Virus record (IMG/VR): IMGVR_UViG_3300034374_007549
Span: 1-29,000 of that record
DNA from: a virus
DNA: 29,000 nucleotides
Strand: one strand, 5' to 3'
Shown here: piece by piece, positions 3,108 through 12,785 of the stretch
Numbering within the stretch: the first letter of the stretch is position 1
How the letters are laid out: every line of letters begins with the position of its first letter
Translations under genes and position numbers: made by a program
Notes under the pieces: generated by a model
The model's database searches: none
Seen by the model: only the letters and a program-made list of their open reading frames with translations
Told to the model about the DNA's origin: nothing

Positions 3108-4107
3108 AAGTAGAAAAAGAACAAAAACACTAATTGTTGATGGTAACGTTCTTATGAAACGTTCTTATAATGGGGCTAAGAACGTTTACCATAAAGACAA
3201 ACATATTGGTGGTATATTTGCCTTTTACAGTACCTTACGTAAACTAATCGTAGAACATAAGATAGATAAAGTTGTTATCACTTGGGATGGTGAACGTAGT
3301 GGTACTTTGCGTTTAGATTACTATCCCGAATATAAGGGAAACAGACCTAGATATTTCGACCAAGAGTATGAAATCCAAAAACTTAGAGTAAAACAATACG
3401 CTGAAGATTTATTTATAAGGCAGTATGAACATGAAGATGTTGAATCAGATGATTTAATAGCTTTCTATTGCCAAAATAAAAATAAATTAGAAGACGTAAT
3501 GATTTATACTAATGATAGGGATATGTGCCAATTAATTAATGAAGAAGTAACTATATTTTTAGCTGATAAAAAAATGGAAGTTGGTATCGGTAATTATGGT
3601 TGGTTTTTTGAACACAATTATCAAAACGCTGGATTAATAAAAATCATACAAGGTTGTTCTTCAGATAATATTAAAGGCATTGATGGTGTAACAGAAAACA
3701 CACTATTAACTTATTTCCCACAATTAAAAGAACGTAAAGTAACCTTAGATGAGATATTTGAGGAATCTAAGAACATCCAAGAAGGTAGAGAAGGTAAACC
3801 TTTAAAAATTATTGATAACATCTTAAATGGTGTATCAAAAGGTGTTCATAGAGGACCATTTTATGAAATAAATCAAAAAATAATTGATTTAAATCAGCCT
3901 TTATTAACAGAAGAGGCTGGAGAATCTGTAAAAAATTTAGTAGATTTACCATTAGACCCTGAAGGTAGAGAATATAAAAATGTTTTAAAAATGATGATTG
4001 AAGACGGAGTTATATACGCAATACCTGGTGGTGAAAATGGATATGTAAATTTTATGGAACCATTTATTAAATTAATAAAAAAAGAAAAGTTAAATTTTAA
4101 AAAGTAA
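3085..4107 (+). CDS. rnh: T4 RNase H-like 5'-3' exonuclease (FEN family)
   Basis: 340 aa. A structure-specific 5' nuclease that removes RNA primers and flaps from lagging-strand fragments. The acidic metal-binding residues of the FEN/T4 RNase H family are in order: D19 (LIVDGN), D68 (ITWDGERSG), E120/D122/D123 (VESDD), D144/D146 (YTNDRD), and the helix-hairpin-helix region GCSSDNIKGIDGV at about 190-202 with D194 and D200. The basic arch region with YYPEYKGNR (79-87) is typical. T4 RNase H is 305 aa, so this version has a slightly longer C-terminus. The start at 3085 overlaps the preceding gene by 23 bases. There is no other ATG before the first catalytic motif, which supports it. Confidence 0.9.
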   Translation: MGLKTPTKSRKRTKTLIVDGNVLMKRSYNGAKNVYHKDKHIGGIFAFYSTLRKLIVEHKIDKVVITWDGERSGTLRLDYYPEYKGNRPRYFDQEYEIQKLRVKQYAEDLFIRQYEHEDVESDDLIAFYCQNKNKLEDVMIYTNDRDMCQLINEEVTIFLADKKMEVGIGNYGWFFEHNYQNAGLIKIIQGCSSDNIKGIDGVTENTLLTYFPQLKERKVTLDEIFEESKNIQEGREGKPLKIIDNILNGVSKGVHRGPFYEINQKIIDLNQPLLTEEAGESVKNLVDLPLDPEGREYKNVLKMMIEDGVIYAIPGGENGYVNFMEPFIKLIKKEKLNFKK

Positions 4108-4114
4108 AAAAAAG

Positions 4115-4552
4115 ATGAAAAAGTTCGAGTTTATTTTGTACATTAATGAAAACATTGTGTGTCAAAGGTATTTCACAGTTAGAGGTTTTAATTCAGAATC
4201 ATTAAAATCTATTGAAGCAAAAGAGTGTGTAGAAAACTGTGTATCCATAATCCAAAGAGATTTAAAATCTAAAACAATGGATTATTTAGAAAAAAATTAT
4301 AATCCTTGGTCTGAACAAAAACCCGAAGATGTTGTTGTTGAAGATATTTTTGAAAATGAGGATGTTTTTGATTTCGAAATTAAAACTGACGAGAAAACTA
4401 TTATGAAAAAACGCTTTACTGGTAATGTTTATCCACAAAGAGTAAGATATTCAGTTGATATTAGAAAATTAATCCCTTCTTTAATAAAGGAAATACAAGA
4501 AACATTTTCAGCAGAAAATTTTTGTGTGGAATATAGTGGAATATCATTGTAA
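4115..4552 (+). CDS. Unknown protein in the replication operon (145 aa)
   Basis: 145 aa, not recognised. It begins with a beta-like segment (FEFILYINENIVCQRYF), has a central acidic patch (DVVVEDIFENEDVFDFE) and a C-terminal helix (LIPSLIKEIQETF). There is no signal peptide, membrane segment or metal motif. It sits 7 bases after the exonuclease gene with an A-rich leader and 18 bases before the helicase gene. That is where T4-like genomes can carry helicase loader or primase-associated functions. Whether it is such a factor cannot be judged from the sequence. Confidence 0.75.
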   Translation: MKKFEFILYINENIVCQRYFTVRGFNSESLKSIEAKECVENCVSIIQRDLKSKTMDYLEKNYNPWSEQKPEDVVVEDIFENEDVFDFEIKTDEKTIMKKRFTGNVYPQRVRYSVDIRKLIPSLIKEIQETFSAENFCVEYSGISL

Positions 4553-4570
4553 ATAGTTATTTATTATTAA

Positions 4571-5968
4571 ATGTTGGGTATGAGTAAAGAGTTAACGTTA
4601 GGTTATTTAGGATATAAGTTTCAAACAGAATTGATCAATCAAATTCTTCACCCGGCTAATAAAAAATTTGCTGATAGAATCATTGATATTGTACACACAA
4701 ATTATTTTGACAACGAATATTTTAGGCTTATTATAGCTACAATAAAAGATTATTACGAACAATTTGAAAAGATTCCGGCTTGGGATACTTTAGAAACTAT
4801 ACTAAAAGTTGAGATTAAAGAAAAAATAACACAAGAGTATGTTTTTGAAATAACTAAAGAAATCAGAGATTTGGATGTAGAAGATTGGGAGTATGTACAA
4901 AGAGAAGCTTTAAATTTTTGTAGACAACAAGAACTAAAAAAAGCGAATGACAAAATATCCAAAATTATTGACCAAGGACAATTTGGTAGATATGAGGAAT
5001 GTGCTGAAATAATGAAAGAAGCTTTAGCCGTTGGTTCTGAAAAGGATGACGGCACTTCTATCACTGAAGGATGGGACACAGTTTTAGAAGAAGATTTTAG
5101 ACACCCAGTTCCTACGGGAATAAGTGGTATAGATAATTTAACCGATGGGGGTCTATCAAGAGGTGAGTTAGGTGTTGTATTGGCACCATATGGTGTTGGT
5201 AAAACTACAATACTAACAAAAATAGCGAATACAGCCTATAATGTTGGTGTGAATGTTTTACAAATTGTTTTTGAGGATAAAGAAGATGTGATTAAAAGAA
5301 AACATGCGGCATGTTGGAGTGGTATAGAATTAAACCAATTGTCGGAGGATAAAGAAACTATTTTAAAAGTTATCAAAGATAGAACACAAGGTAAAGAGAA
5401 TGATTTAATAATCAGGAAGTTTCCGTCTGAGGGTATAACTGTTAATCACATAAAATCCTATATAAGACATCTAATATCAATAGGTTTTAAACCTGATTTG
5501 GTTGTTTTGGATTATATCGATTGTTTGGAATCAACAAGAAAATATAATGATGAATGGTCAGGTGAGGGTAATGTAATGAGAGGTTTTGAATCTATGTTAG
5601 CTGAGTACAATATTGTAGGTTGGACTGCAGTACAAGGTAATAGGAGTTCAGTATCGGCTGAAGTCGTAACAGGAGACCAAATGGGTGGTTCAATTAAAAA
5701 GGCACAAATAGGTCACTTTATTATGTCTGTAGCTAGAACATTACCACAAAAAGAAAGTAATAGAGCTACGATAGCTGTTTTAAAATCTAGGTTTGGTAAA
5801 GATGGTGTTATATTTGAAGATTGTACTTTTGATAATGGTAGGGTTTACATTGACACAGAAACATCTGATACTTTTTTAGGTTATGAGAAAAAAGTAGAAG
5901 TTAGAAAAGAAGAAAATGCTAGAGAAAGATTAAAAATGGTTAAATTAAGAAAAGAAGCAAACAATTAA
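4571..5968 (+). CDS. 41: gp41/DnaB-like replicative DNA helicase
   Basis: 465 aa (T4 gp41 is 475). A hexameric 5'-3' helicase that unwinds the fork. An all-helical N-terminal domain (about 1-150) is followed by a RecA-like ATPase domain. Walker A is APYGVGKT at about 205-212, with Ala in the first position instead of the usual Gly, as I recall for T4 gp41. Walker B is LVVLDYID at about 310-317. A conserved VQGNRSS segment follows in the motif H4 region (DNA loop and arginine-finger side), then MGGSIKKAQ, typical of DnaB-family helicases (the 'D..GS..I...AD' position). The C-terminus is strongly basic. An alternative ATG at 4580 (MSKELTLG) is possible. Confidence 0.9.
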   Translation: MLGMSKELTLGYLGYKFQTELINQILHPANKKFADRIIDIVHTNYFDNEYFRLIIATIKDYYEQFEKIPAWDTLETILKVEIKEKITQEYVFEITKEIRDLDVEDWEYVQREALNFCRQQELKKANDKISKIIDQGQFGRYEECAEIMKEALAVGSEKDDGTSITEGWDTVLEEDFRHPVPTGISGIDNLTDGGLSRGELGVVLAPYGVGKTTILTKIANTAYNVGVNVLQIVFEDKEDVIKRKHAACWSGIELNQLSEDKETILKVIKDRTQGKENDLIIRKFPSEGITVNHIKSYIRHLISIGFKPDLVVLDYIDCLESTRKYNDEWSGEGNVMRGFESMLAEYNIVGWTAVQGNRSSVSAEVVTGDQMGGSIKKAQIGHFIMSVARTLPQKESNRATIAVLKSRFGKDGVIFEDCTFDNGRVYIDTETSDTFLGYEKKVEVRKEENARERLKMVKLRKEANN

Positions 5969-5996: not shown

Positions 5997-7877
5997 ATGG
6001 AATTATCTAATAAAATTTTATCCGAAATTACTGTTTACATGAAATACGCTAAGTATATTCCTGAACTACAAAGAAGAGAAACTTGGGAAGAGTTGGTAAC
6101 TAGGAATAAAGAAATGCACCAAAGAAAATACCCTAATTTAAAAGAGGAAATTGAAGAAGTGTATAAAAAGGTGTACAATAAAAAAGTTTTACCTTCAATG
6201 AGGTCATTACAATTTGGAGGGAAACCAATCGAAACATCACCAAATAGAGTTTATAACTGTGCTTATTTACCTATCGACCACATTGATGCTTTTGCTGAAA
6301 CAATGTTTTTATTATTAGGTGGAACTGGTGTTGGTTATTCAGTACAAAAACACCATGTAGAAAAATTACCAGAGATTCAAAAACCAAATCCAGAAAGAAC
6401 AAGAAGATATTTGATTGGAGATTCAATTGAAGGGTGGGCTGATGCTATTAAAGTATTAATGAAATCTTATTTTGGTGTTAATTCATCAACACCTATTTTT
6501 GATTATTCTGATATTAGACCAAAAGGAGCTATGTTAGTTACATCAGGAGGTAAAGCACCTGGACCACAACCATTAAAAGATTGTATCCATAATATCACAA
6601 AAGTTTTAGACGCAAAAGAAAATAGACAAAAATTAACAACATTAGAGGTTCACGATATTGTTTGTTATATTGCTGACGCTGTTTTAGCGGGTGGTATTAG
6701 AAGAGCAGCTTTAATTTCACTTTTCTCAGCTGATGACAACGATATGGTTACGTGTAAGTCGGGAGCATGGTGGGAACTTAATCCACAAAGAGGTAGAGCT
6801 AATAACTCGGCAGTTTTACTTAGAAATAAAATCACAAAAGAATTTTTCTTAGATTTATGGAAAAGAGTAGAATTATCAGGAGCTGGTGAACCTGGAATTT
6901 ATTTCTCTTACGATAAAGATTGGGGAACTAACCCTTGTTGTGAAATTGCACTTCGTCCTTTTCAGTTTTGTAACTTATGTGAGGTAAACGCTTCAGATTT
7001 AGAATCACAGGAAGATTTAAATAACAGAGTTAAGGCGGCAGCATTTATTGGGACTTTACAGGCTGGTTATACTGATTTCCACTATTTAAGAGACGTGTGG
7101 AAAAGAACAACTGAAAAAGACGCTTTAATTGGTGTATCGATGACAGGTATTGGTTCAGGGACTGTGTTAGGGTATGACATGAAAGAGGCAGCTGAGGCAG
7201 TTAAATCAGAAAACGCTAGAGTAGCAAAATTAATTGGTATTAATGAATCAGCTCGTACCACAACAGTTAAACCAGCAGGAACAACTTCATTAACATTAGG
7301 TACGTCATCAGGTATTCACGCATGGCACAATGATTATTATATCAGAAGAGTAAGAGTTGGTAAGAATGAGTCAATTTATACTTATTTATCAATCTATCAC
7401 CCTGAGTTAATTGAAGATGAGGTATTTAGACCACACGATACAGCAGTAATCTCTGTACCACAAAAAGCACCTGAAGGTTCTATTCTTAGACACGAATCTC
7501 CTTTTGAATTATTAGAGAGAATTAAAAGAGTGGCTCAAGAATGGATTAAACCTGGACATAGAACAGGACAAAATACACACAATGTATCGGCTACAGTATC
7601 ATTGAAAGAAGATGAATGGGAGTTAGCTGGTGAATGGATGTGGGACAATCGTGAATTTTATAACGGTTTATCTGTATTACCGTATAATGGGGGGACATAT
7701 CAACAGGCTCCTTTTGAGGATTGTACAGAAGAAACTTACAATAAAATGATGAAATCACTTTCTAATGTAGATTTATCTAAAATCGTTGAGTTAACCGACA
7801 ATACAGATTTAAGTGGTGAATTGGCATGTTCCGGAGGAAATTGTACTGTGGATTCTTTTGGTAAAAAAGAAGATTAA
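5997..7877 (+). CDS. nrdJ: Adenosylcobalamin-dependent (class II) ribonucleotide reductase
   Basis: 626 aa. It reduces ribonucleotides to deoxyribonucleotides using a B12-generated thiyl radical, so no oxygen and no NrdB subunit are needed. It resembles the monomeric ribonucleoside-triphosphate reductase (Lactobacillus leichmannii type). The active-site stretch NPCCEI at 312-317 supplies N312, radical cysteine C314 and E316. The reducible cysteine pair is C88 (RVYNCAYLP) and C325, exactly 11 residues after C314 as in the L. leichmannii enzyme (408/419). The C-terminal relay pair is C611-x4-C616 (CSGGNC), matching 731/736. The protein is about 110 residues shorter than the Lactobacillus enzyme (739 aa), so the insertion carrying its allosteric site may be reduced. 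Last gene of the replication operon; a terminator follows. Confidence 0.9.
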   Translation: MELSNKILSEITVYMKYAKYIPELQRRETWEELVTRNKEMHQRKYPNLKEEIEEVYKKVYNKKVLPSMRSLQFGGKPIETSPNRVYNCAYLPIDHIDAFAETMFLLLGGTGVGYSVQKHHVEKLPEIQKPNPERTRRYLIGDSIEGWADAIKVLMKSYFGVNSSTPIFDYSDIRPKGAMLVTSGGKAPGPQPLKDCIHNITKVLDAKENRQKLTTLEVHDIVCYIADAVLAGGIRRAALISLFSADDNDMVTCKSGAWWELNPQRGRANNSAVLLRNKITKEFFLDLWKRVELSGAGEPGIYFSYDKDWGTNPCCEIALRPFQFCNLCEVNASDLESQEDLNNRVKAAAFIGTLQAGYTDFHYLRDVWKRTTEKDALIGVSMTGIGSGTVLGYDMKEAAEAVKSENARVAKLIGINESARTTTVKPAGTTSLTLGTSSGIHAWHNDYYIRRVRVGKNESIYTYLSIYHPELIEDEVFRPHDTAVISVPQKAPEGSILRHESPFELLERIKRVAQEWIKPGHRTGQNTHNVSATVSLKEDEWELAGEWMWDNREFYNGLSVLPYNGGTYQQAPFEDCTEETYNKMMKSLSNVDLSKIVELTDNTDLSGELACSGGNCTVDSFGKKED

Positions 7878-7937: not shown

Positions 7938-8357
7938 ATGATACAGTATATATACAAAATAGAAAATAAATTAAATGGTAAGGTTTACATAGGGAAGACC
8001 AAAGACCTAGAAAAAAGAATATACCAACACAGAAGGAATGTTGGTAAAAAGAGACATAGATTATATGACGCAATATTACATTATACATGGGATAATTTTT
8101 TAGTGGAAATTATAGATAAAACTGAGGGTGATATAGATGAATTAGAGAAACACTATATTAAACAATACAATTCAATTACAGAGGGTTATAATTATACTGA
8201 AGGTGGTGAAGGTGGTGACACATTTACACATAAAAGTGAAGACGAAAAAAATATAACCAGAAAGAAATTAAGTAAAGCAGCTAAAATAAGTAACCAAAAA
8301 AATATAGAGAGAACACTAAAAAACTTTGGGAAAACCCAGAATATAGAGAAAAAATAA
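7938..8357 (+). CDS. GIY-YIG homing endonuclease, catalytic half (frameshifted gene)
   Basis: 139 aa as read in this frame. The GIY-YIG nuclease domain occupies about residues 3-95: YIY (4-6), VYIG (16-19, with catalytic-type Y17), R27, and E70 (DELEKHYI) as the metal-binding glutamate. It ends at TAA 8355-8357 just after a Lys/Ser-rich linker. The remaining DNA-binding modules continue in the -1 frame to 8677 (separate entry). The full gene would be about 246 aa, a normal length for a phage free-standing homing endonuclease. It stands alone between two terminators (7903-7937 and 8701-8727), typical of an inserted intergenic endonuclease cassette. Its leader is only the T-tract of the terminator, so expression is expected to be poor. 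Confidence 0.85.
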   Translation: MIQYIYKIENKLNGKVYIGKTKDLEKRIYQHRRNVGKKRHRLYDAILHYTWDNFLVEIIDKTEGDIDELEKHYIKQYNSITEGYNYTEGGEGGDTFTHKSEDEKNITRKKLSKAAKISNQKNIERTLKNFGKTQNIEKK

Positions 8358-8772: not shown

Positions 8773-8785
8773 TTAGATATTTATT
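8773..8785 (+). promoter_or_regulatory. Candidate late promoter element before gp25
   Basis: TTAGATATTTATT ends 13 bases before the gp25 ATG and recurs exactly before the gp6 gene (10886-10898, 15 bases before its ATG). It lies between a terminator and the first baseplate gene, where a promoter is needed. The reverse complement contains AATAAATA, one base from the T4 late promoter TATAAATA, so its orientation is uncertain. Shorter versions (ATATTTATT) occur inside genes, which lowers confidence. Confidence 0.35.
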
Positions 8786-8798
8786 AATAAAAAGATTT

Positions 8799-9203
8799 AT
8801 GGCAGAAAGATTTATTAACATAGAGTTCCCCTTCCAAGACGATAATAACAAAAATTATTTCTTGAAGATGAATAAAGATGGAAAAAGGGCTTTAAAATCT
8901 GATCTAATGCATTTGTTATTAACAACACCTGGTGATAGGTTATATTTACCTGATTTTGGTACAAATTTAAGAAAATTTATTTTTGAACAAAATGATAACG
9001 AAACTTATAATGGTATAAAAGAAGAGATACAATCGGTGATTAACAAATACATACCAAACCTTAAATTAACAGAATTAACAATAAACAAACCCGAAGTTGG
9101 TGAATATAATGTGGATATAGAACATTCTGCTGTTGTAAGAATAGATTATGTTTATACTGAGGGTGCTTTATCACAAACAGATTTTGTGGAATTTGTTATA
9201 TAA
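8799..9203 (+). CDS. 25: gp25-like baseplate wedge subunit
   Basis: 134 aa (T4 gp25 is 132). GPW/gp25 family: a conserved component of the inner baseplate wedge core that joins the gp6 dimer and nucleates sheath attachment in contractile tails. The family signature is clear: a FPF near the N-terminus (10-12), then LLLTTPGDRLYLPDFGTNLR (39-58) and FIFE (60-63). The usual G-E-R of the core-bundle (EPR) motif is G-D-R here. Its TAA stop (9201-9203) touches the stop of the minus-strand endonuclease (9204-9206) with no gap. In P2-like and T4-like genomes gp25 (W) directly precedes gp6 (J). Here the pair is split by that endonuclease gene. Confidence 0.93.
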   Translation: MAERFINIEFPFQDDNNKNYFLKMNKDGKRALKSDLMHLLLTTPGDRLYLPDFGTNLRKFIFEQNDNETYNGIKEEIQSVINKYIPNLKLTELTINKPEVGEYNVDIEHSAVVRIDYVYTEGALSQTDFVEFVI

Positions 9204-10826
9204 TTAATTTGTTTTATATACATATACTTTTTGACCAGAATCAAAAATCCTACTTAAACCCATTTCTAACATAATTTCTGTTGCTGTTTTATTTATATCA
9301 CCACCCATTTCTATTAATTTATGTTTTTGGTATTTAATACGATTCTCTTTTTTCCCTTTATTTACAACAAACCAATTAGGTGTGGTATTTTTAACAAATT
9401 CAAAACCAAGGTTTTCATATAATAATCCTTGACTCCATGATCTATCAGCATAACTAATTATATTACTAGGGTTATAATTTTTAATAAAGTGTGTGAATAA
9501 TTTAGATGCTGCACCAACAACACTAATATTTAATTTATTACAAAATCTTATTAATTCATATTCCGAACTATTCAAAATAGGTCTTTTACCAAAAGTCATA
9601 ATTGAGACTAATTCATCTTTATAATATAACCCTAAATCTATTTTGGAACCAACACTACCTTGTATATGATTTGTATCTAAAAATTTCTTTTTATCTCTTT
9701 TATTAACAACTTTAATTACACACTTACGTGCATATATTTTATATTCATTTAATTTTAGGATATTCTTTATTCTAGATTTTACGATATTTTCCTTTAACAA
9801 CCAATCATCTTCATAAATATGTATTAATTGTACACCCATCTCTTCACACTTATTTGTTTTTATTAAGTGATAATCATTATTTTTATATTCCTCTGAATGC
9901 CAATACAAACCATTATATTCTATAGCTATATTGTGTGATGGTATATAAATATCTAATTCATACTCTTTTAATAAAGATCTATCATTTTCAATACACTCAA
10001 TACCCATTTCTCTAATAAAATCAACTATTTTTTTCTCGTTTAATGATAAACTATTACTACAATTTTTACAACCATAACAATTTAAGTGATAATGTGGTCT
10101 AACATTTATGATACCATGTATTGGACATATTATTTTAACCTCATCAAAGGTTGATTTATAATCTACCAATGAATAATCATATTTATTACCATGTATTTGT
10201 TTTGATTTTTCAATAAACATTTGTGTATTTATAATCCTACCTACACATTCTGGACAACCTTGTTTTTTTGAGATATGGTTATTAGGTATTTGTTCAAACT
10301 CACCATGAATTGGACATGTAATTTTAATAGGTTTTCTAGATAATTCATAATCTACTTTATAGTAATCATATTTATCACCATGAACTTCTTTTGCTTTAAT
10401 TATAAAAAGTTTTGTATCCATTTTAGTAGTTCCACCACAATACCTACACCCTTTACCACTTAAATGATTACCAGGTGTTTGTTCAAACTCACCATGTATT
10501 GGACATATTAATTTTACCTTTGTCCCCAATGATTTATATTCTACCAATGAGTAATCATATTTATCACCATGTATATTAATAGCTTCACTAATAAACTCTT
10601 CTTTTGTTTTCCTTTGATTATTAGATACTTTAATTATGGCACACTGATTACATCCTTGTTTAGCATTAACATGTTTTACTGGTTTTTGTTCAAACACACC
10701 ATGAATTGGGCATATTATCTTTACTTTTGTTGATGAGTTTTTATATTCTACTAATGAATAATCATATTTAATACCATGTATTTTAACGGCTTCAGTAATG
10801 AATTCTTTTTGTGTTTTTTTTCTCAT
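9204..10826 (-). CDS. Homing endonuclease: four Cys/His modules plus Vsr-like nuclease
   Basis: 540 aa from the ATG at 10826. A TTG nine codons upstream (10853) would extend the frame but is less likely. Residues ~5-260 are four tandem ~65-aa modules with the consensus F-x-x-x-A-x-x-x-H-G-x-K-Y-D-Y-S-L-V-x-Y, CPIHG and GC-x-x-C. Each supplies C-x2-H and C-x2-C ligands: C39/H42-C59/C62, C108/H111-C127/C130, C171/H174-C191/C194, C234/H237-C253/C256. They resemble the DUF723 family and are likely zinc-bound DNA readers. The nuclease core follows, with E290, LD292, E303 and YWH310S (ELDIYIP...IAIEYNGLYWHSE). This matches the Vsr-like (EDxHD) phage homing endonucleases related to I-Bth0305I. The C-terminal ~200 residues are further folded sequence. 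It is the only gene on the minus strand and lies convergently against gp25. Confidence 0.82.
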   Translation of the reverse strand: MRKKTQKEFITEAVKIHGIKYDYSLVEYKNSSTKVKIICPIHGVFEQKPVKHVNAKQGCNQCAIIKVSNNQRKTKEEFISEAINIHGDKYDYSLVEYKSLGTKVKLICPIHGEFEQTPGNHLSGKGCRYCGGTTKMDTKLFIIKAKEVHGDKYDYYKVDYELSRKPIKITCPIHGEFEQIPNNHISKKQGCPECVGRIINTQMFIEKSKQIHGNKYDYSLVDYKSTFDEVKIICPIHGIINVRPHYHLNCYGCKNCSNSLSLNEKKIVDFIREMGIECIENDRSLLKEYELDIYIPSHNIAIEYNGLYWHSEEYKNNDYHLIKTNKCEEMGVQLIHIYEDDWLLKENIVKSRIKNILKLNEYKIYARKCVIKVVNKRDKKKFLDTNHIQGSVGSKIDLGLYYKDELVSIMTFGKRPILNSSEYELIRFCNKLNISVVGAASKLFTHFIKNYNPSNIISYADRSWSQGLLYENLGFEFVKNTTPNWFVVNKGKKENRIKYQKHKLIEMGGDINKTATEIMLEMGLSRIFDSGQKVYVYKTN

Positions 10827-10853
10827 ATAGTTCTTTACGATAGTTCGTTTCAA

Positions 10854-10913
10854 TATAAATATATTAAATATTAAAAAAAATAAATTTAGATATTTATTTA
10901 AAAAATAAGTTAG
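10854..10913 (+). promoter_or_regulatory. Divergent intergenic region upstream of gp6 and the endonuclease
   Basis: This A/T-only-like spacer separates the minus-strand endonuclease from gp6. It holds an exact T4 late-promoter word TATAAATA (10854-10861, + strand, 53 bases before the gp6 ATG) and TTAGATATTTATT (10886-10898), the 13-mer also found before gp25. Because gp6 cannot be co-transcribed cleanly through an opposing gene, a promoter is expected here. Which element serves is undecided, and TATAAATA also occurs by chance inside genes of the window. Confidence 0.45.
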
Positions 10914-12785
10914 ATGTCAACACAAACAAAAAAAATAAATTATTTTGCTAGGAACTTCGCTGATGTTAGAGGTGAGTTAATAGATTTCATTAAACTATAT
11001 TATCCCGATTTATATAGTGATTTTAACGATGCGTCAGTTGGTACAATGTTATTAGAGTTAAACGCTGCTGTAGCTGATATGTTATCATATCATACAGATA
11101 GAATGTTTAATGAGACCCAATTGGATTACGCACAAGAACGTAAAAATGTTTTAGCTATAGCGAGAACTTTGGGTTTAAAAATACCTGGTTTACGACCTAG
11201 TGTTACTTTGGTTGATTTCGCTGTAACCATACCTGTCAGAGGTGATACTTGGGATATTAGATACGCACCAACAATTAGATATGGTTCACAAGTTTTAGGT
11301 GGTGGCCAAACTTTTGAAAATTTAGAAGATATAGATTTTTCATCACCTTACACAACAGGAGGTATACCAAATAGGTTAATTTTACCTAATGTTGATGATA
11401 ATGGTATTTTAAGGGATTATACTATAGTTAAGAGGGAGTTGGTAGTTAATGGTTTAACAAAAACATTTAAAAAAGTTATAACTCAAGTAGATTCAAAACC
11501 ATTCTTAAATATTTATTTACCTGACAACAATGTATTGTCGGTAGAAAGTATTATTAATTTAGAAGGTACTAATTTTACAACAACACCAACTTTGGATCAA
11601 TATCTAGACCCAACGTTAAGATGGTATGAAATGGATTCTTTGGCTGAAGATAAAATTTTTGTTGAGGATGGTGTCAGAGAAACAGATAATTCGGCTGTTA
11701 GACCTGGTAAATATGTGAGTACAACAAGGCGTTTTGTTAAAGAATTTACAGACAATGGTTATTGTAAATTAACTTTTGGTTCTGGATCTAACACAATGGA
11801 TGAACAACTAAAAAACATATCTTCAACAGGCATTAAAATAGGTGATTTTATTAATACAACGGCTTTGGGTGAAATAATAAAACCAAACACAACACTTTTT
11901 GTTAGATACAGAGTTGGTGGTGGACCTAGTACAAATATTGGACCGAATAGTGTTAATAGTATTGGTTTAATGACTATTAATGTTGATGGACCTAATAATG
12001 CTATTAACCAAAATGTTAAAAGAAGTTTAAGAGTTAATAACCCAATTCCTGCTATTGGTGGGGCGGGTATTCCATCGGTTGAACAAATAAGACAACTAAC
12101 TAAATATAACTTTGCATCACAAAATAGAGCAGTTACAATTAAAGATTATCACGCTATAATTGGTAAAATACCTGGTAAATTTGGTTCACCATATAGATAT
12201 ACTGTAACAGAAAACCAAAATAAAATAGATGTTAGTGTGTTAGGGTTAAATGCGAATGGCAAATTAACAAACCAATCAACAAATACACTAAAAGAAAATA
12301 TAGCTACATGGTTATCTGATTATAGAATGATTAATGATTATGTTTTGGTTAGAGATGGTAAAATAGTTAATTTAGGTTTTGATATAGATTTGTTTATAGA
12401 TAAAGCAGTTAACCAATCCGAGGTAATTAATAATGTTATTAATAGTATTAAAAACTATTTTGATGTTAAAAAATGGGAGATGGGTGATAATATTTATATG
12501 GCACAACTAATAGAAAATATTAATAATGTTGGTGGTGTATTAAATGTTATTAAAGCAGATGTATATAATTTAATTGGTGGTAAGTATTCATTAAACCAAT
12601 TATCACAAGCATTTATTCCATCATCAACAGTCACAACACAACAACCATTTAATAATGGTAAACAAATAGATTTGGGTGAGGATTATGCATTGTATGGTGA
12701 TTATAATTCTATGTTTGAGATTAAATATCCTGAAACAGATATTAGGGTAAGAGTTAAAAAAGCTTCAGTAGTTACACAGTCTTAA
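10914..12785 (+). CDS. 6: gp6-like baseplate wedge protein (baseplate J family)
   Basis: 623 aa (T4 gp6 is 660). It forms the dimeric ring that joins the baseplate wedges and triggers the sheath-contraction conformational change. Support: an N-terminal block with PDLYSDFNDASVGTMLLELN (31-50) followed by ...ADMLSYHTDRMFNETQLDYA and R-x-N-V...A-R-T-L-G, the standard gp6/J opening. A mid-region matches the J-family AP.IGG.G....E.IR segment (NPIPAIGGAGIPSVEQIRQL, then VTIKDYHAII at about 410). The C-terminal domain has alternating beta segments and helices. The upstream region has a candidate promoter, since the endonuclease interrupts any continuous gp25-gp6 transcript. The next gene starts 4 bases after the stop. 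Confidence 0.92.
   Translation: MSTQTKKINYFARNFADVRGELIDFIKLYYPDLYSDFNDASVGTMLLELNAAVADMLSYHTDRMFNETQLDYAQERKNVLAIARTLGLKIPGLRPSVTLVDFAVTIPVRGDTWDIRYAPTIRYGSQVLGGGQTFENLEDIDFSSPYTTGGIPNRLILPNVDDNGILRDYTIVKRELVVNGLTKTFKKVITQVDSKPFLNIYLPDNNVLSVESIINLEGTNFTTTPTLDQYLDPTLRWYEMDSLAEDKIFVEDGVRETDNSAVRPGKYVSTTRRFVKEFTDNGYCKLTFGSGSNTMDEQLKNISSTGIKIGDFINTTALGEIIKPNTTLFVRYRVGGGPSTNIGPNSVNSIGLMTINVDGPNNAINQNVKRSLRVNNPIPAIGGAGIPSVEQIRQLTKYNFASQNRAVTIKDYHAIIGKIPGKFGSPYRYTVTENQNKIDVSVLGLNANGKLTNQSTNTLKENIATWLSDYRMINDYVLVRDGKIVNLGFDIDLFIDKAVNQSEVINNVINSIKNYFDVKKWEMGDNIYMAQLIENINNVGGVLNVIKADVYNLIGGKYSLNQLSQAFIPSSTVTTQQPFNNGKQIDLGEDYALYGDYNSMFEIKYPETDIRVRVKKASVVTQS

Follow-up and report, generated by a model that had tools for sequence, protein, structure and literature searches.

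A Hef-like gene with a zinc-module array, a Vsr-like nuclease core and a Mom-like domain between the viral baseplate genes gp25 and gp6, and its probable target site inside gp6

RESULTS

The endonuclease gene and its neighbours

The window, the whole 29,000-nt stretch of viral DNA analysed here, carries on its minus strand a gene (9204..10826) that we annotate as encoding a Hef-like free-standing homing endonuclease, on the basis of the ORF itself, a match to DUF723, PHROGs 559 and 3339 and annotated relatives named as Hef-like. The ORF runs from 10826 down to 9204 and specifies 540 aa counted from the ATG; an alternative TTG start at 10853 would make the protein 9 aa longer. The left neighbour is the baseplate wedge gene gp25 (8799..9203, plus strand; Pfam GPW_gp25 1.5e-11, PHROG 261/43), the last base of which (9203) directly precedes the stop of the endonuclease gene, so that position, strand and stop-to-stop arrangement are as an earlier, sequence-only reading of the window had given them. 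The right neighbour and putative target gene is the baseplate wedge gene gp6 (10914..12785, plus strand; PHROG 219). It is preceded by a segment of 87 nt (10827..10913, plus strand) that extends back to the start of the endonuclease gene; in the empty relative L014 (related loci are given L numbers) gp25 and gp6 lie 21 nt apart. This segment contains a ATATTTATTNATAAA-like motif at 10890-10904, directly 5' of gp6, and the same kind of motif lies directly 5' of gp25 (8777-8791). The motif is weak in the window (P about 0.06) and recurs 6-15 nt 5' of gp6 in several carriers of the endonuclease gene, not significantly in all of them; it may restore gp6 expression after convergent insertion. Further upstream, the window holds a second HEG of the GIY-YIG type (7938-8357, plus strand; Pfam 1.3e-14), located 3' of a ribonucleotide-reductase-like gene (5997-7877).

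Compared as a whole with Pfam, the 540-residue protein matched DUF723 (6.5e-14) and DUF4379, a probable treble clef, and both MTES_1575 and Mom were hit below their cut-offs; no GIY-YIG/T5orf172 nuclease domain was matched in Pfam at E up to 1. Its PHROG matches were 559 (3e-146), 3339 (homing endonuclease) and 1384 (Mom-like), and 1063 phage records matched it, each at less than 60 % identity, with the annotated relatives named Hef-like or homing endonuclease, among other names. The AlphaFold2 model of the whole protein had a mean pLDDT of 88.4 and a pTM of only 0.55, and the mutual placement of its domains is therefore unreliable. At the level of sequence, the protein combines four zinc modules, an EDxHD/Vsr-like nuclease core and a Mom-like GNAT domain.

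Zinc modules and nuclease core

The modules occupy residues 6-62 (10641..10811), 75-130 (10437..10604), 138-194 (10245..10415) and 201-256 (10059..10226), all on the minus strand, and the end of module 2 together with the following linker carries GKGCxYCGGT. Each was located with a module profile that was seeded with the window's own four modules and extended by iteration through 94 related proteins; the window modules score 2e-22 to 9e-29 each, values that are no independent test, since the family itself went into the profile. In 73 of the 94 proteins the profile finds a total of 277 modules, a count taken from the first ATG (L096 and L098 are shortened there and have full length with another start). 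Over these 277 modules the four metal ligands are C in 99 %, H in 96 %, C in 100 % and C in 99 %, and the predicted metal set is Cys-His-Cys-Cys. The four tandem modules of the sequence-only reading, each with its own C2HC set, were thus recovered with zinc sites that are kept across the family, in which the number of modules differs from protein to protein. Linkers between modules (n=206) fall largely into two classes, 94 of 6-8 residues and 88 of 12-13 residues (182 of 206 together), and these may set the register of the modules on DNA.

The modules are followed by a nuclease core (about residues 264-356; 9759..10037, minus strand), whose match to Pfam MTES_1575 is below the cut-off. A 42-member profile of this core matched the 3r3p domain at 1.4e-5, the only solved chain found at E up to 0.01. 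The title of the 3r3p record is 'Mobile intron protein', and we take the protein to be I-Bth0305I and the nuclease motif to be the one called EDxHD. Residues D292, E303, G306 and H310 are present in all 95 relatives, and the Vsr-like (EDxHD) core that had been proposed to follow the modules is borne out by this conservation (D292, E303 and H310) and by the 3r3p match.

The Mom-like domain

Residues 357-540 (9207..9758, minus strand) constitute a separate domain, absent from the sequence-only reading, which is a GNAT-fold relative of phage Mu Mom. Its predicted structure (pLDDT 94.9) gave Mu Mom (8bv8) as the first-ranked Foldseek match (4.2e-9); with a second aligner (VIA) Mom reached Z 13.2 at rank 31, amid many GNATs at 12.8-14.3. 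In comparisons of sequence, 67 of 83 C-terminal domains matched Pfam Mom (PF25680) at E up to 0.01, the window domain alone scoring 24.0 bits, under the cut-off of 27.1. An hhalign comparison of the C-terminal domain with seven Mom proteins gave 98 % (E 3e-13), a result that needed the seven-member Mom alignment, as the single Mu Mom sequence against the C-terminal-domain alignment gave a probability of only 6.9 % (E 0.005). GNATs crowd the structural ranking and Mom wins the sequence comparison, so the fold is that of a GNAT and the sequence that of Mom.

Of 95 relatives, 91, 87, 91, 94 and 92 retain the equivalents of the Mom-invariant residues H58, E108, R111, D149 and Y159, respectively; at the equivalent of S146, 76 relatives have S and 16 have T. 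The column aligned with Mu S124 (the 8bv8 record title describes Mu Mom S124A as inactive) is T in 61 of 95 and I in the window, with some uncertainty in the placement of the column. Pooled over 16 close pairs, not all of them independent, pN/pS was 0.16 for the Mom-like domain, 0.15 for the nuclease and 0.25 for the module array. Judged by these ratios, purifying selection on the Mom-like domain is as strong as that on the nuclease, and in the family as a whole the domain is evidently no relic. It is probably catalytically relevant, and it may protect the intact gp6 site of the resident or bind DNA. In the related gene of phage FL12 (L263, 1891-3483) an Asn replaces a nearly invariant Asp, D461, which is kept in 94 of 95 relatives, and the Mom domain of that enzyme is possibly dead. 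That the domain has lost catalysis altogether and now serves as an extra DNA contact is possible, if on balance doubtful: the FL12 substitution, the S124-like column, not retained in the window, and the frequency of module-bearing nucleases without Mom (33 of 94 arrays) would all suit such a loss, whereas neither the retention of the equivalents of H58, E108, R111, D149 and Y159 in 87-94 of 95 relatives nor a pN/pS equal to that of the nuclease would be expected from it.

Occupied and empty gp25-gp6 junctions

A scan with gp6 only yielded 80 loci (the best 80 of 182), in 75 of which gp25 directly adjoins gp6, the adjacency in L075, L076, L081 and L083 resting on BLAST coordinates. Three of the 80 carry the endonuclease gene, namely L013 (a near-identical record of the window's phage), L062 and L089; the remaining two, L038 and L042, hold a different HEG-like gene, of 253 aa, the end of which is Vsr-like as judged by eye. 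The first residues of that gene (MAEKKI; 2170-2931 in L038) copy the start of gp6. Endonuclease scans added the carriers L094-L100, together with L161 and L165, in which the reader (module-array) part is another one, and a scan with the module array added L186, L188 and L211. A small unknown ORF, not gp25, adjoins the endonuclease gene in L094.

On a gp6 tree of 90 rows the 10 carriers require 9 changes (shuffled mean 9.1), at least 6 of which are forced by well supported branches, and occupied and empty sisters are found as the pairs window/L014, L095/L006 and L089/L091-L092. The change counts do not separate gain from loss. This tree comprised gp6 matches of at least 250 residues, excluding L090 (a stop in the gp6 match) and the duplicate records L001, L004, L005, L013 and L093. 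A direct gp25-gp6 junction is therefore the rule among relatives and the carriers are scattered over the gp6 tree, in keeping with the earlier view of a mobile gene set into an otherwise uninterrupted pair. It is well supported by these comparisons that the endonuclease gene is mobile and comes and goes at one junction. The junction is also host to several kinds of HEG. In L007 a nuclease gene with three modules and no Mom domain (3916-4836, plus strand) lies between a distant gp25 and gp6, on the other strand. Elsewhere in the carriers L062 (53-1529) and L089 (113-1784), the region 5' of gp25 contains a HEG-like ORF and, after it, an ORF whose first part is the C-terminal half of an intein, fused to part of a ribonucleotide reductase (by eye); this has the appearance of a fractured gene carrying a split intein, reportedly the arrangement that Dassa et al. 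described in 2009.

Fossil gp6 heads and the probable break point

The carrier L095 can be aligned with its empty sister L006 through gp25 and the intergenic stretch into gp6, where the copy of the gp6 head beside gp25 ends after CAATATTACC and is followed by the endonuclease gene, with the whole gp6 beyond. The two gp6-head copies form a 111-nt repeat, 98 % identical, that flanks the endonuclease gene. L100, of a different gp6 lineage, has a flanking repeat of 137-155 nt (81-86 % identical), and its fossil gp6 head stops after CAATATTA. Both heads therefore end at the gp6 codons QYY/P, about 90 nt inside the gene, the two divergent lineages agreeing within about 3 nt. The equivalent position in the window, assigned by homology with L095 and L100, is 11002..11006 (plus strand; codons Y30/P31). 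Of 13 distinct loci at the site these 2 keep a fossil head, and none is seen in the remaining 11, among them the window. At the second Tyr codon of L095 the fossil has TAC, like L006, and the intact head has TAT, as expected if the intact head came from a donor.

We consider that the nuclease probably breaks gp6 about 90 nt inside the gene and not at the gp25-gp6 junction. The sequence-only reading had taken the insertion point itself as the recognition site, and in most occupied loci the gene does sit at or beside the gp25 stop codon. Conservation of the junction among empty relatives is nevertheless poor, with gaps that range from -1 to 21 nt in the loci of the gp6 scan, and the 3' end of the gene overlaps gp25 in L062, L096 and L188. 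The stretch of gp6 surrounding the fossil end is, by contrast, conserved, and both fossil heads end inside gp6; recognition of the junction itself now seems quite improbable.

The repeats might instead be products of ordinary illegitimate recombination or of assembly, uninformative on cleavage. Most carriers have no repeats, and the contigs of L095 and L100 are metagenomic; two divergent lineages nevertheless agree in the end point within about 3 nt, and comparable copies of gene ends flank related genes at other sites, and such an origin is unlikely in our view. Among 167 related ORFs, flanking copies of a gene end could also be read at sites other than this junction: the sheath tail MNTGASFDNI in L101 and L109, an identical 35-nt gene tail in L142 and a gene head in L222; L103 and L113 also show flanking repeats, and the remaining repeats listed are weak or far away.

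The second Tyr codon at the probable break is TAT in the carrier and TAC in the empty relative in all five of the pairs that differ (among seven sister pairs; L007 and, for independence, L098 were left out), a pattern that was noticed in these same data and is matched at 5/5 by three other columns of 1869. A Fisher scan of 1797 columns does not place it in the top 15, and the carriers L062, L094 and L186 have TAC. Self-immunity through a silent change at the break point is suggestive at best.

Array architecture, site and the exchange of halves

The module-array scan found 94 arrays in 80 loci, 11 of which adjoin gp6 or gp25 (one of the 11 being the near-identical record of the window's phage). 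Four modules with linkers of 12 or 13, 7 and 6 residues were present in all 11 of these and in none of the other 83, and the signature GKGC.[YH]CGGT at the end of module 2 occurred in 10 of the 11 and nowhere else. On the reader tree the eight rows from the site need 2 changes (shuffled mean 7.3), and a tree in which they form one clade is no worse. The shared architecture and the few changes on the reader tree indicate that one reader lineage belongs to the gp25-gp6 junction.

This is the part of the idea of modules as target readers that gains support. The further suggestion that module number sets target length fares less well, in that arrays of 3, 4 and 5 modules are found at one and the same end of the tail-sheath gene (L118, L106 and L101), loci whose exact cut sites may differ; module number as a simple length code was rejected on this ground. 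L003 (5004-8269) encodes a tandem pair of proteins, one with seven zinc modules and one with five (counted by eye), whose C-terminal end is another one and looks like GIY-YIG/T5orf172, again by eye.

At the gp25-gp6 junction itself, L161 and L165 have a similar effector half joined to a different reader. Unrelated readers also accompany the nuclease and Mom halves elsewhere, for example in L002 near a tail-sheath gene. Among the 94 arrays, 33 come with the nuclease but no Mom domain and 22 with neither. In phage PA5oct a Mom-bearing Hef-like gene (L261, 2246-3928) lies between two ORFs annotated as DNA polymerase. On the C-terminal tree, from which L146, L158 and L164 were left out, the 10 rows from the site are scattered and require 8 changes, against a shuffled mean of 9.6. 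Reader type, with zinc modules in 72 rows and none in 20, takes 11 changes on this tree; a single clade for the site rows was not rejected by the C-terminal half (AU p 0.265 with 92 rows and 0.114 with 34, L158 being left out of the latter too). The window and L062 are joined in the reader tree (94/98) and their union is rejected in the C-terminal tree (p 0.0275); a union of the window with L094 was not rejected in the reader tree (p 0.166). An exchange of reader and effector halves between lineages is suggested by these trees, and only suggested.

Rfam introns were found neither in 28 loci with Mom-less arrays nor in 31 with Mom-bearing arrays (L182, L223 and L245 of the module-array scan excluded). 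The prediction that Mom-less relatives sit in introns is unsupported by this search and by the Mom-less HEG of L007, which lies between gp25 and gp6.

DISCUSSION

Our current working hypothesis, to which we assign a probability of roughly 0.7, is that the gene encodes a free-standing homing endonuclease of the Hef-like kind, which cuts within gp6, and that a restored gp6 start arrives with the gene. The zinc modules would bind a conserved stretch near the gp6 start and, where a co-infecting genome lacks the gene, the nuclease would break its gp6 at the codons QYY/P. Repair templated by the resident copy, using homology in gp6 on one side and in gp25 on the other, would then install the endonuclease gene together with a fresh gp6 start, and since the fresh start arrives with the gene, gp6 would stay whole. 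If joining at the left end takes place without homology, the gp6 head that belonged to the recipient would be left behind as a fossil. Free-standing phage endonucleases that target conserved neighbour genes are known, MobE and Hef both cleaving nrdB according to one report (PMC2988022), and in Tequatrovirus FL12 the same nuclease and Mom halves lie between nrdA and nrdB with another reader.

A different proposal has been made for jumbo-phage Mom-REase fusions (PMC7824862) and would apply here as restriction-modification-like interference: Mom would mark the phage's DNA and the nuclease would attack the DNA of the host or of a superinfecting phage, mobility being secondary. Mom is indeed fused to nucleases of the REase fold there, with five momylating enzymes in PA5oct (PMC7824862), a phage in which the window protein has five matching places, and strong constraint acts on the Mom domain. 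Homing to a specific site nevertheless accounts better for occupied sites that have empty sisters, for the tie between array architecture and junction and for the fossil ends of genes, and one PA5oct copy lies between two DNA polymerase ORFs; we regard interference as the main function as rather unlikely.

If the gene is a homing endonuclease aimed at gp6, the Mom-like domain might serve as its antidote, the zinc array aiming both nuclease and modification at one gp6 site. The resident's intact target would be chemically marked and only gene-free genomes would be cut. This is our boldest reading, put forward tentatively and as less likely than not. Protection of the resident copy by Mom would explain a free-standing homing endonuclease beside an uninterrupted target, and the gene would then be a single-chain, restriction-modification-like selfish element in which self-cleavage is avoided by modification, not by interrupting or mutating the target. 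Sister genomes, a site-tied architecture and fossil heads together make the target testable, in the region of gp6 codons 28-40. The arrays, which comprise 2-8 modules and in which most linkers have one of two lengths, could also provide natural material for studying DNA reading by modules of this kind.

Each part of the protein is already known: the modules (PMC10448857, PMC12350094), the nuclease family and the Mom-REase fusions (PMC7824862). A search of the open-licence literature with a few word forms found neither such proteins described as homing endonucleases with a Mom domain nor an array architecture linked to site or fossil gene ends in phages. The two published readings, as Hef-like homing endonuclease and as Mom-REase fusion, are not brought together in the parts of the literature examined.

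The closest known proteins are Hef of phage U5 and the Hef-like homing endonucleases (PHROG 559, 3339), of which annotated relatives align over nearly all of the protein at 36-41 % identity; the Tequatrovirus relative at the nrdA-nrdB position shares the nuclease and Mom halves. FL12 differs in its N-terminal reader, its site and its target gene. In the jumbo-phage Mom-REase fusions we very probably have these same proteins, approached by way of Mom, but the accessible text reads them as modification plus restriction and not as homing endonucleases (PMC7824862). With phage Mu Mom (8bv8) the C-terminal domain shares the GNAT fold and the common invariant residues, but Mu Mom is a stand-alone enzyme without reader or nuclease. 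Likewise the nuclease core is shared with I-Bth0305I (3r3p; profile E 1.4e-5), but the window enzyme is free-standing and has a zinc array and a Mom-like domain in addition. The HEGs of phage group II introns with CapR/DUF723 arrays are similar in having 3-5 CapR/DUF723-like modules and an EDxHD/Vsr-like nuclease, and different in being intron-borne; the terms Mom, GNAT and acetyltransferase do not occur in that text (PMC12350094). T5orf172 HEGs also have repeated zinc modules (CapR/DUF723/DUF4397), for which beads-on-a-string target reading has been proposed, but their nuclease is T5orf172 (PMC10448857), whereas that of the window protein is EDxHD-like. Finally, the proposed restoration of gp6 has a counterpart in the fungal mitochondrial mORF hybrids (Allomyces atp6, Glomus), where the endonuclease gene likewise brings a restoring end of the target gene and the native gene end remains (PMC3630166); that case is mitochondrial and concerns the C-terminal end, whereas in the window it would be the 5' end of gp6.
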